From the NCBI RefSeq assembly GCF_018128245.1, contig NZ_CP072378.1, positions 186,001 to 250,000 on the forward strand: 64,000 bases of DNA, in the 5' to 3' direction. Positions 22,504 to 49,131 of this stretch are shown in pieces (within the stretch, counting starts at the first letter, position 1; every line of letters begins with the position of its first letter). Under the pieces are notes generated by a model. The model was given only the letters and a program-made list of their open reading frames with translations. It was not told the origin of the DNA and made no database searches. A program made the translations under genes and the position numbers. The stretch is from Leptotrichia sp. oral taxon 221. Its GTDB lineage: Bacteria; Fusobacteriota; Fusobacteriia; Fusobacteriales; Leptotrichiaceae.

Positions 22504-23199
22504 ATGAGTATCAAGGCAATATTCATGGATATGGATGGAACGGTTCTTACGAGCGAACACAAAGTTTCTGACAAACTGAAAAATAAATTAAATGAATTAG
22601 AAGAAAAAGGAATAAAAATTTTTGTTGCAACAGGAAGAAGTTATTCTGGTACTAAACGTTATTTGGAATTAATTGGGATAAAAAATCCTGTAATTACTTA
22701 CAATGGTGGAAGAATTGTAAATCCATTGACAGATGAAGTTGTTTATGAGAATGCAATTAAGCCAGAAATCGTTGAAAAGATAATAAAGTTGGCAAGAGAA
22801 AAGGACATTCACTTGAATTTGTACAATGAGGATAAATTGTATTTTGAAAGAAATGGTGGCGAAGGAGAAAAATATGCTGCGAAAACAGGAATGCCTTTTG
22901 AAGTGGTAAATTTTGATGATTTTATTGGAAAAAATTCGACGAAAGGATTGTTACTGGCTCCAAATGATAAGTTGTTGGAATTGAAGGAAGAGTTGGAAAA
23001 ATCATTTGAAGGAGTGTACTTTGTATTTTCACAACCGACTTATTTGGAAATTTTGAATGAGGGTGTGAATAAAGGCGGTGCTGTTAGAGAATTGTTGAAA
23101 CAGTATGGGATTTCAGCTGATGAGGCGATGGCGTTTGGAGATCAGTGGAATGACCTTGAGATGTTAAAAACCGTAAAATATGGATATTTGATGGGATAG
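22504..23199 (+). pseudogene. Cof-type HAD phosphatase, 5' part (split by mobile element)
   Basis: The first 231 codons of a Cof/HAD-IIB phosphatase: motif I DMDGT, a cap region, and motif IV GDQWNDLEM. The frame runs into the mobile element at 23196 and meets TAG at once. The missing C-terminus is found at 25728-25826, and the joined protein would have 262 residues, normal for the family. AAGGAGAAG precedes the ATG. The gene may not be dead: the element has group I intron features in sense orientation, so splicing could restore the mRNA. Without splicing, the last 31 residues are lost, after all catalytic motifs. Confidence 0.9.
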
Positions 23200-23811
23200 A
23201 TAACTGTTATTAAAAATATATAAAAAACAAAAATATATATTAATAATTGTATAGAAAACCCCTATTTCAGTAGCAATGCTGAGATAGCTTGAATTTAAAA
23301 CTAGGAAACCCTAAAGAATTAGATAACTACAACATAACTGGAAACGGTAAGTGTGAATGTTGCGAAAGCAGAAAAAATATCTAAATATGAACTATGGTGA
23401 AATAAAAGCTATATATTTAATTAGTTATTGAGATGTGACATCTGATTATTTATATAGTCCTAAGGTTACGTTAAATATAAAAAATCAATAACATAGTATT
23501 TAACTATTACAATGGGTGTTTAGTTACCAATCATCTAAGGCTAGTTAAGTTATGATGAAGGTTCAACGACTAGGTGGTTGAGCCACCCTTTTAAAAAAAG
23601 ATAACTAGAAAAAAAACTAGGAAAGTAAAACTGTAAGCAGATATATTGACACGGCTTTATATCAATGACAGAAGAAAAATATTCACAGCCTTAATTTTTT
23701 AAGGTTGAACAAATAGTCTACGCTAATATGAAAATATTAGAAGTCTACCAGCAATGGAAAGACTGCTTTGATAGTTGCGTATCAAGGTGAATGCATAAAA
23801 AGTCTATAATA
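23196..23811 (+). ncRNA. Group I intron ribozyme core of the IStron
   Basis: No protein gene fits this stretch. GTTCAACGACTAG (23561-23573) matches the conserved R segment of group IA introns, and AAATAGTC (23711-23718) matches S; GACTA/TAGTC forms P7. P7.1 is GGTGG/CCACC (23573-23577/23583-23587). P8 is CCTTAA/TTAAGG (23689-23694/23699-23704). P3 may be TGTGAAT/ATTCACA (23352-23358/23681-23687). P9 is CTAATAT/ATATTAG with a GAAA tetraloop (23723-23740). A further hairpin CTTTGATA/TATCAAGG lies at about 23766-23787. The P4-P6 region was not fully resolved. Confidence 0.82.
23795..23809 (+). repeat. Inverted repeat arm 1 inside IStron
   Basis: ATAAAAAGTCTATAA, a perfect 15-nt reverse complement of 25710-25724. 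It lies just after the last hairpin of the ribozyme core. Confidence 0.85.
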
Positions 23812-23835
23812 AAATATAAAATAAACAAGAAAATG

Positions 23836-23864
23836 TTGATTTTTGTATATTGTTATGCTATGCT
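23836..23864 (+). promoter_or_regulatory. Internal promoter before tnpA
   Basis: TTGATT and TATGCT are separated by 17 bp, with TGn before the -10, about 20 bp upstream of the tnpA start. Confidence 0.45.
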
Positions 23865-23885
23865 AATATCAAGGAGTGATAAAAG

Positions 23886-24497
23886 ATGTTAAGTATAGGA
23901 AAATTTGCAAAATCTTTAGGAGTAAGTATTCAAACTCTAAGAAACTGGGATAAGGAAGGAAAATTAAAACCTACTTATGTTACAGAAAATGGATATAGAT
24001 ACTATTCTGAAGATTTACTAAATAAATTTAGAAATATCAAAAATGTTAATAAAATAAAGAAAAAAAATATATTATATGCAAGAGTGTCTACTAAGAATCA
24101 AAAAGATGATTTAAATAGACAAATTGATAATCTAAAGCAATATGCTTATAGCAAAGGATATTCTTTTGAAATAATAACTGATATTGGAAGTGGAATAAAT
24201 TATAAAAAAGAAGGTCTTTTAAAAATGATAAATTTAGTTGAATGTGGAGAAGTTGACAGAATAATTGTCTTATATAAAGACAGACTTATAAGATTTGGCT
24301 ATGATTTAATTGAATACATTTGCAAACTTAATGATACTAAAATAGAAATAGTAGATAATTCTACTATTTCTAAGGAACAGGAACTAACAGAAGATTTAAT
24401 ACAAATTATAACTATTTTTGCAAACAGACTGTATGGAGCAAGAAGCAAGAAAACAATTAATTTGATAAAGAGCGTAAAAGAAAATGCTGATAGGTAA
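23886..24497 (+). CDS. tnpA: IS607-type serine recombinase TnpA
   Basis: A 203-residue small serine recombinase with a MerR-like helix-turn-helix first (residues 1-50, IGKFAKSLGVSIQTLRNWDKEG), then the resolvase catalytic domain. The nucleophile serine is in YARVSTKNQ, and the catalytic arginines lie in KDRLIRFG. This reversed order is the IS607 hallmark. AAGGAG precedes the ATG. The gene looks intact and overlaps tnpB by 14 bp. Confidence 0.95.
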   Translation: MLSIGKFAKSLGVSIQTLRNWDKEGKLKPTYVTENGYRYYSEDLLNKFRNIKNVNKIKKKNILYARVSTKNQKDDLNRQIDNLKQYAYSKGYSFEIITDIGSGINYKKEGLLKMINLVECGEVDRIIVLYKDRLIRFGYDLIEYICKLNDTKIEIVDNSTISKEQELTEDLIQIITIFANRLYGARSKKTINLIKSVKENADR

Positions 24498-25551
24498 AAA
24501 AATCAGAATAAAAACAACTCCTGAACTAGAAATATTATTGAGAAAATGTGCAGGTGTTGCAAGATTTTCTTATAATCTAATGATTAGTTTAAATAATAGT
24601 TCCCAAAAGTTTATTAAAGAGAGTGATGTGCGAAAATATGTTACGGGGTTAAAAAAGCAAGAAAATTACAGCTGGTTAAAAGAAGTTAGTGCTAATATCC
24701 CTAAACAGGCAATAAAAAACTGCGGGAAAGCATACTCCGATTATTTCAAAAAGTTAAGAGGAAAACCTAAATTTAAAAAGAAATTCAAAAATGACCGTTT
24801 CTATGTGAATTATGAGAGCTTGAAAAAAACAAATTTAGGATTTAAAGCTGAAAAATTAGGAGAAATAAGAACTAGCGAACCATTACCTGAAGCCAAACAA
24901 TATTATAATCCATATATTGTATATGACAATAAATATTGGTATCTAACATTTTCTATTGAAACAGAGTGTATAAAAGAGCAATTAAATGATTTTACACTTG
25001 GAATTGATTTAGGAATAAAGCATTTTGCAGTAACATCACAAAATGAAATCATACCAAATATAAATAAGACTTTGACAATGAAAAAACTTTACAAGAAAAT
25101 AAAAAGATACCAAAGAAAACTTACAAAGTGTTTAAAAAATAGTTTTAATAGAATTAAAGTTTTAAAACAGCTTCACCGATTGTTTAGAAGACAAAAAAAT
25201 ATCAGAAATAATCATATACATCAAGCAACTTCACATTTGGTAAAAACCAAGCCAAGTAAAATAGTTGTTGAGTATTTGAGGGTTTCTAATATACTTAAAA
25301 ATAAAAGATTATCAAAAGCAATATCTGAAAGTGGATTTTATGAATTTAGAAGACAACTTGAATATAAATGTAAATTAAGAAATATTAAATTTATGTTAGC
25401 AGATACATTTTTTCCAAGTAGTAAAAAATGTTCTAACTGTGGAAATATAAAAAAAGATTTAACATTGAAAGATAGAATATATAAATGCGATTGCTGTGGT
25501 CTTGAAATAGATAGAGACTATAATGCAAGTCTTAATTTAAGCAAGTTATAA
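24484..25551 (+). CDS. tnpB: TnpB RNA-guided nuclease (IStron)
   Basis: A 355-residue TnpB, the ancestor type of Cas12. The RuvC residues look complete: Asp in GIDLGIKH, Glu in VVEYL and Asp in DRDYNASL. The zinc ribbon is CSNCGN...CDCCG. It would cut DNA next to a short motif, using a guide RNA made from the right end of the element, and so favour element retention. The gene lies within the intron, so splicing and guide RNA production would compete. Confidence 0.93.
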   Translation: MLIGKKIRIKTTPELEILLRKCAGVARFSYNLMISLNNSSQKFIKESDVRKYVTGLKKQENYSWLKEVSANIPKQAIKNCGKAYSDYFKKLRGKPKFKKKFKNDRFYVNYESLKKTNLGFKAEKLGEIRTSEPLPEAKQYYNPYIVYDNKYWYLTFSIETECIKEQLNDFTLGIDLGIKHFAVTSQNEIIPNINKTLTMKKLYKKIKRYQRKLTKCLKNSFNRIKVLKQLHRLFRRQKNIRNNHIHQATSHLVKTKPSKIVVEYLRVSNILKNKRLSKAISESGFYEFRRQLEYKCKLRNIKFMLADTFFPSSKKCSNCGNIKKDLTLKDRIYKCDCCGLEIDRDYNASLNLSKL

Positions 25552-25729
25552 TACAATATAAAAAATTAACATACCGTTCGATATACGGAAATTTAAGTCT
25601 GTGGAGAGTTAGAAAAACTTGTCAATTTTATTCGGCAAGAACTTTATGAAACAGAAAGTTGAATTAGTGATAGTCAACATGTCAACATAATAAAAGTTTA
25701 TTTTGATTTTTATAGACTTTTTATATCGG
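25552..25729 (+). ncRNA. Putative omega (guide) RNA scaffold, right end of IStron
   Basis: Three hairpins lie in the non-coding right end: CCGT/ACGG (25574-25588), CTTGTC/GGCAAG (25618-25639) and AACTTT/AAAGTT (25640-25660). TnpB guide RNAs come from this position and read into the flank, so the guide would start at 25730 (AAATGCGACAGATGAA), in HAD gene sequence. The exact RNA ends are not visible. Confidence 0.6.
25710..25724 (+). repeat. Inverted repeat arm 2 inside IStron
   Basis: TTATAGACTTTTTAT, a perfect 15-nt reverse complement of 23795-23809. It lies 3 nt before the terminal CGG... junction at 25727-25729. Confidence 0.85.
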
Positions 25730-25826
25730 AAATGCGACAGATGAATTGAAAAAGGAATTTCCTAAGGATAGAATTACGTTGACAAATGATGAAGACGGAA
25801 TTTACGAGGTTATAAAAGAATTATAA
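25728..25826 (+). pseudogene. Cof-type HAD phosphatase, 3' part
   Basis: Read in frame, GGA is followed by NATDELKKEFPKDRITLTND and a further short tail to TAA at 25824-25826. This is the normal C-terminus of the Cof family, and it follows directly on ...YGYLMG of the 5' part when the element is taken out. It has no start of its own. Confidence 0.9.
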
Positions 25827-48661: not shown

Positions 48662-48738
48662 CGGTGTATAGCGCAGCTCGGTAGCGCACCTGCCTTGGGA
48701 GCAGGGGGTCGCAGGTTCAAATCCTGCTACACCGACCA
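48662..48738 (+). tRNA. tRNA-Pro (TGG)
   Basis: A 77-nt cloverleaf. The acceptor CGGTGTA pairs with TACACCG, the anticodon loop is CTTGGGA, the T-loop is GGTTCAAATCC, and CCA is encoded. Confidence 0.97.
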
Positions 48739-48749
48739 TCTATAAAAAT

Positions 48750-48825
48750 GCGGGAGTAGCTCAGTTGGTAGAGCGTCAGCCTTCCAAGCTGAATGTCGCG
48801 AGTTCGACCCTCGTCTCCCGCTCCA
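48750..48825 (+). tRNA. tRNA-Gly (TCC)
   Basis: A 76-nt cloverleaf. The acceptor GCGGGAG pairs with CTCCCGC, the anticodon loop is CTTCCAA, and CCA is encoded. Confidence 0.97.
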
Positions 48826-48868
48826 TTTTTATTTTGGGTATTTAAAATTAAATAAATTGCATATTTAT

Positions 48869-48945
48869 GGTGATCGTAGTTCAGTTGGTAGAGCGCCAGT
48901 TTGTGGCACTGGTTGTCGCGGGTTCAAGTCCCGTCGATCACCCCA
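48869..48945 (+). tRNA. tRNA-His (GTG)
   Basis: A 77-nt cloverleaf including the extra G-1 that faces C73, the tRNA-His identity element. The anticodon loop is TTGTGGC, and CCA is encoded. Confidence 0.97.
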
Positions 48946-48951
48946 TAATAT

Positions 48952-49027
48952 GAGCCATTAGCTCAGTCGGTAGAGCACTTGACTTTTAATCAAGGTGTCA
49001 CTGGTTCGATCCCAGTATGGCTCACCA
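48952..49027 (+). tRNA. tRNA-Lys (TTT)
   Basis: A 76-nt cloverleaf. The acceptor GAGCCAT pairs with ATGGCTC, the anticodon loop is CTTTTAA, and CCA is encoded. Confidence 0.97.
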
Positions 49028-49046
49028 TTTTAGTAATTAGGTGAAT

Positions 49047-49131
49047 GCGAGAGTGGCGAAATTGGTATACGCACTAGACTTAGGATCTAGCGTCTTTGTA
49101 CATGTGGGTTCGAGTCCCACCTTTCGCACCA
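49047..49131 (+). tRNA. tRNA-Leu (TAG)
   Basis: An 85-nt tRNA with a long variable arm. The acceptor GCGAGAG pairs with CTTTCGC, the anticodon loop is CTTAGGA, and CCA is encoded. Confidence 0.96.

Follow-up and report, generated by a model that had tools for sequence, protein, structure and literature searches.

The window analyzed here, a stretch of 64,000 nucleotides, carries a HAD phosphatase gene that is split by an insert of 2,534 bp, which raises the question of what the insert is and what becomes of the host message. The insert (23196-25729) consists of a group I intron fused to intact IS607 TnpA and TnpB genes (Table 1). In our reading, it is very probably a group B (IS607-type) IStron, namely, an element that is moved by TnpA, retained through guided TnpB, and spliced out by a group I ribozyme with restoration of the host mRNA. 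Its first letters are ATAGATAACTG and its last letters TATATCGG, and its own TAG at 23197-23199 closes the HAD reading frame.

Table 1. Coordinates of the element, its parts and the flanking host gene in the window
Feature	Position	Strand	Remarks
HAD phosphatase 5' exon	22504..23195	+	Ends ...ATGGG; Pfam PF08282, E 4.8e-61; relatives read on YGYLMGNA
Target site TGGG	23192..23195	+	Identical in copy 2
Whole IStron	23196..25729	+	Starts ATAGATAAC, ends TATATCGG; no target duplication
P1	23193..23261	+	Exon GGG 23193-23195 pairs CCC 23259-23261, then AT-rich stem; unconstrained RNA fold
P2	23262-23287	+	Unconstrained RNA fold
P3	23290..23685	+	23290-23294 with 23681-23685
P4	23299..23525	+	23299-23303 with 23521-23525
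P5 domain with inner hairpin	23319..23384	+	Best R1 match; two compensatory changes between copies
P6	23530..23556	+	23530-23534 with 23552-23556
P7	23568..23718	+	23568-23572 with 23714-23718
P7.1	23573-23587	+	Within P7
P7.2	23631-23671	+	Within P7
P8	23687..23706	+	Hand-placed helix
P9, GAAA loop	23723..23740	+	Hand-placed helix
P9.2, GTTGCG loop	23768..23785	+	Hand-placed helix
Inverted repeat, 5' arm	23795..23826	+	Long, AT-rich, enclosing genes
tnpA, IS607 serine transposase	23886..24497	+	203 aa; MerR-type HTH and resolvase domain; Ser68
tnpB, RNA-guided endonuclease family	24484..25551	+	355 aa; D175/E263/D345; two CxxC
RAGATH-18-like putative guide RNA (omegaRNA/reRNA) scaffold	25598..25657	+	36.1 bits, E 2.1e-4; gathering score 44.9 (RF03064); guide would be the 3' flank
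Inverted repeat, 3' arm	25696..25724	+	
HAD phosphatase 3' exon	25730..25826	+	Frame comparison with relatives

The genome (2.08 Mb, two contigs) contains a second full copy (copy 2; L010:800-3325, G000:C1:1432599-1435124) that has the same ends as the window element and is 98% identical to it, with 47 mismatches over 2,540 aligned bases. The host gene of copy 2 encodes a Gfo/Idh/MocA oxidoreductase; the insertion follows AAATGGG, and the 3' end of the copy is CGG. The two full copies thus have the same ends and the same target in two genes and two codon phases, and the boundaries 23196 and 25729 proposed in the first-pass annotation were exact to the base. A third copy in the same genome (L011:264-1989) is 5' truncated and internally deleted, with some of the intron and the beginning of tnpA missing; it retains an open 355-aa tnpB frame and the CGG end. 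When the small contig (38,144 bases) was compared with plasmids over its first 12,000 bases, four matches were obtained, all to Leptotrichia and each covering at most 5% of the query. Five tRNA genes are clustered on the + strand at 48662-49128 of the window.

Uninterrupted relatives, the empty sites that the first-pass annotation had suggested looking for in other genomes, were found for both host genes. The search for HAD relatives returned 21 proteins with open frames of 255-292 aa, compared with 234 aa here; the 13 of them that were fetched are all uninterrupted at GYLMGNA. Without the element, which lies in the sense orientation as first annotated, the window gene reads YGYLMG-NATDEL, as in these relatives, so that the claimed restoration of the HAD frame was borne out. 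For the oxidoreductase, seven of nine relatives show KWAVLGTG over the insertion site (one of these genes is itself broken), and no match to this junction pattern was obtained for the remaining two, which are more distant. Furthermore, three relatives (L083-L085) each differ from the joined flanks of copy 2 at one of 62 bases, and not at the junction. Because uninterrupted relatives match the joined flanks, we assigned the leading A to the element. Both host genes read in frame without the element despite the differing insertion phases, and the element probably removes its own copy from the messages of its host genes.

The first-pass annotation had proposed RF00028, the Rfam group I model, as a check and named the lack of a group I hit among the refuting outcomes. 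This outcome did occur, with no match in the element region at E values up to 10. The silence of RF00028 was not decisive, because the model also missed four of five related introns in the same genome, the fifth scoring 49.6 bits against 50; after this control, we set RF00028 aside as an arbiter of intron identity. When applied to four other IS607-type IStrons, it found those of Selenomonas ruminantium (L095) and Lysinibacillus sphaericus (L049) below 50 and missed those of Enterococcus cecorum (L045) and of a genome from another Fusobacteriota family (G030). Matches of the region to the PreQ1, SNORD28, and U6atac models of Rfam (E up to 10) were weak and were taken as chance.

Two other models did recognize the intron. 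A profile made from 27 introns of the group A type matched 23283-23572 with an E value of 1.4e-11; these introns came from the family and were picked by motif, one having been followed to both ends and several starting too far upstream. The covariance model R1, built from 12 introns without the window element (11 from phylum genomes, of which three are from the same genome, and L049), matched 23319-23384 (E 4e-11) and 23681-23740 (E 0.03), in this order. The R1 match thus falls into two pieces, with long stretches inserted close to P5 and within P7.2. Relative to the 27 profile introns, the start of L005 was trimmed for R1, seven introns were dropped, and three more that were correctly placed were also dropped. 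Under stricter filters, R1 matched 11 of the 98 phylum genomes, from which 11 of its 12 training introns stem. A stretch at L019:1310-1597 matches the same intron class by R1; its host gene is replicative-polymerase-like by eye, and the neighboring stretches are masked.

The DNA upstream of tnpA was said to hold no protein gene, and we found no open reading frame of at least 40 aa (ATG, GTG, or TTG start) in 23200-23885. It does contain the R-like motif GTTCAACGACTAG (23561-23573) and the S-like motif AAATAGTC (23711-23718), and the P7, P7.1, P8, and GAAA-capped P9 listed at first pass could all be located. A MAFFT alignment of whole introns set some helices out of register, as judged by eye, and the helices were therefore placed by hand. 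Since hand placement favors the model, we relied on a slid control and on the independent model R1. The ten helices from P3 to P9.2 form 57 of 57 pairs in the window and 18-25 of 57 when slid. Five other introns have these ten helices in unchanged order, with 56/57 paired positions in copy 2, 58/58 in E. cecorum, 59/59 in L. sphaericus, 51/51 in S. ruminantium, and 48/48 in G030, and sliding by 1-3 bases over all six introns left at most 31 of 58 pairs. In P3, P4, P5, and P8, both strands change between species. The inverted repeat scored 19.5, compared with a maximum of 16.5 in 2000 shuffles. The hexamer just before it, GAAUGC (23789-23794), is at the expected position but is none of the five published motifs. 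Short matches to the AT-rich ends were observed in L017, L027, and L028.

A comparison of the two full copies provided information on selection. Their intron parts differ by 12 substitutions and one deletion, and the pairs 23332-23354 and 23337-23348 have both changed from A-U to G-C, i.e., they are double compensatory changes. When the 12 substitutions were placed at random (200,000 trials, mutation clustering ignored), two or more such pairs arose at a frequency of 5.5e-5. Substitutions touched five base pairs; four were kept, and the fifth, in P9.2, is broken in copy 2. That two copies so nearly identical differ by compensatory changes provides evidence from nature that the ribozyme has been under selection.

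The serine recombinase and TnpB, claimed to be intact, are indeed full length, match their families, and possess the expected catalytic motifs. TnpA scored 216.8 bits with the IS607 transposase model NF033518 (cut-off 110), and TnpB scored 253.1 bits with the guided TnpB family model NF040570 (cut-off 100). Ser68 of TnpA and D175/E263/D345 of TnpB, located by motif, are presumably the catalytic residues. Between the copies, there are 5 synonymous and 4 replacing codon changes in tnpA and 11 synonymous and 6 replacing ones in tnpB. The RAGATH-18 match of the window element, rightly placed behind tnpB, stayed below threshold; RAGATH-18 RNAs were found above threshold downstream of tnpB in four other IS607-type IStrons, namely, L045, L049, L095, and that of G030 (L101; 55.5 bits). 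According to PMC11061315, such RNAs adjoin IS607 TnpBs and guide them, and Fusobacteria are among the seven phyla concerned. A guide RNA within the intron would make this element a further system in which splicing conflicts with production of the TnpB guide.

The overall architecture corresponds to that of an IStron, as a group I intron lies upstream of, and is joined to, an insertion sequence, both forming a single mobile unit. The features of group B are an IS607 serine transposase with TnpB, a site ending in GG, a CGG end, the lack of a target duplication, and a long AU-rich inverted repeat enclosing the genes (of 15-34 bp in PMC4227781), all of which were observed here. We infer transposition, guide RNA activity, and splicing of the element. 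At the DNA stage, TnpA would insert the element after TGGG without target duplication, and TnpB, directed by a guide RNA of the RAGATH-18 type, would cleave the empty TGGG site, helping to keep a copy there. At the RNA stage, the 5' 600 nt would fold into a group I ribozyme, the guide CCC of which would pair with the exon end GGG, while the AT-rich inverted repeat would hold tnpA, tnpB, and the guide RNA in a loop. Restoration of the host mRNA would then follow from splicing behind GGG and behind the final CGG.

The splice site itself is unusual. In unconstrained folds, the first intron base of both full copies is an A that faces an A, and there is no splice-site U-G pair. In five of the six sequences folded, the end of the exon is paired with the internal guide, through GGG/CCC in the window and copy 2, GGGCU/AGCCC in E. 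cecorum, GGGUA/UACCC in S. ruminantium, and GGAG/CUCU in G030; the fold of L. sphaericus picked a different pairing. Among IS607-type IStrons, the first intron base and the base opposite were U-A, C-G, A-A, and C-A in the folds and U-G in L. sphaericus, the latter being a reading by eye. As reported in PMC4227781, BcISt1 splices after G by RT-PCR, and its first intron base is U. The group B trait of a U at this position is absent here, with A in both copies, and E. cecorum has C. We kept the group B assignment despite the A because target site, element ends, and IS family are what separates the groups in PMC4227781. A tentative proposal, which we rate just short of even, is that splicing occurs exactly at G-A without a U-G pair, the first base being mismatched to A and free to vary among IS607-type IStrons. 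Site choice would come from the short exon-guide helix and the neighboring internal loop, so that a single TGGG would act at once for the transposase, as the TnpB target motif, and for the ribozyme. With its U-G pair missing, the element allows a rule on group I splice sites to be tested directly.

We considered whether the locus can be accounted for without an active ribozyme. It could be an IS607 element of the ordinary kind, with a 690-nt leader of unrelated noncoding DNA that resembles a group I intron by chance. IS607-type TnpA was detected at 13 places in 8 of the 98 phylum genomes (E 1e-15), and a profile intron match accompanies only the two full copies here. The remaining 11 places would fit a chance leader, but one of them, L066, corresponds to the truncated third copy and contains a piece of the intron. 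Also in line with a chance leader, no intron match was obtained for 8 of 10 named genome TnpA loci or for 6 of 7 loci from plasmids, phages, and viruses. The plasmid and phage searches returned TnpA relatives of less than 60% identity, four of which were examined (L095-L098; one with an intron), and the three TnpA loci on viral contigs had no intron match. Against this, the covariance and profile matches come from models built without the window element, and the helices recur in order in five other introns. These matches and the shared helices contradict a chance resemblance, which we regard as extremely improbable.

A decayed intron deserves more weight, although we consider it unlikely. The ribozyme would then be dead or nearly so, and an IS607 transposon would simply break the HAD gene. 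The silence of RF00028, the match of R1 in only two pieces, and the first intron base without a U-G pair are all compatible with decay; however, all core helices form in both copies bar one pair, two compensatory changes separate the copies, and both insertions are sense oriented with open joined frames. The group B IStron with a splicing ribozyme is the reading we prefer.

Fusobacterial IStrons, including one of Leptotrichia buccalis, are listed in Table 1 of the 2014 survey, all of the IS200/IS605 kind (PMC4227781), and an IStron of Fusobacterium nucleatum was reported in 2007 (PMC1924603). The claim that a fusobacterial IStron extends the host range does not hold for IStrons as such but stands for the IS607 kind, which is new relative to the 2014 survey. 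Among the papers listed by our searches, we found no earlier report of an IS607-type IStron in Fusobacteria, although we do not claim its absence from print. The window element, the kind and coordinates of which had been given correctly, is a further group B IStron, with a deviating first base and from a phylum not listed for group B in 2014. It appears to be complete, with both genes intact, in a phylum with only the IS605 type in that survey. The same genome, the only member of its genus among the 98 genomes of the phylum examined, contains five group A-type introns (L100, L102, L103, L104, and L105), three with TnpB beside them and two for which no TnpB was found. One of them (L100:2169-4130) was traced to both ends (TTTAT and TCAG) as a group A IStron with an open joined frame. 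Both IStron groups live in one genome, with at least one full group A IStron and the window element, which runs against the statement of the 2014 survey that no species harbors both (PMC4227781). In G030, a tnpB-only IStron (L101:1364-3215) was found after GGAG, with the end GCAG, and it resembles CsISt1 (AG site, CAG end; PMC4227781). Its joined frame is open, and its host gene is ROK-like by eye.

Group B was compared using L049 and L095, which we take to be LsISt1 and SrISt1, respectively. BcISt1 and the Clostridium elements were compared by their description in PMC4227781. Like the group B IStrons of that survey, the window element has P7.1 and P7.2, IS607 TnpA and TnpB, insertion at TGGG, a CGG end, and a long AT-rich inverted repeat around the genes; the frame is also restored in L049. 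It differs from them in its Leptotrichiaceae host, in A rather than U as first base, in GAAUGC before the repeat, and in the insertions in P7.2 and near P5. Its TnpA is 53% identical to that of L049 and 56% to that of L095. The group A elements FnISt1, FnISt2, and LbISt1 share the ribozyme class and the phylum but differ in their IS200/IS605 machinery, their targets (TTGAT/ATTAT/TTTAT), and their end, TCAG (PMC4227781). The ISFba1 system (PMC11061315), in the main text of which "IStron" is absent and "intron" occurs once, has the same TnpB family and a downstream RAGATH-18 RNA; its motifs are AGGAG and GAGGG, whereas the flank of the window element is TGGG. The IStron of E. cecorum, which was identified in this analysis, shares the TGGG target and the CGG end, with TnpA 56% and TnpB 46% identical and an R1 match to its intron at an E value of 2.8e-33; unlike the window element, its first base is a C that pairs with G in the guide sequence.
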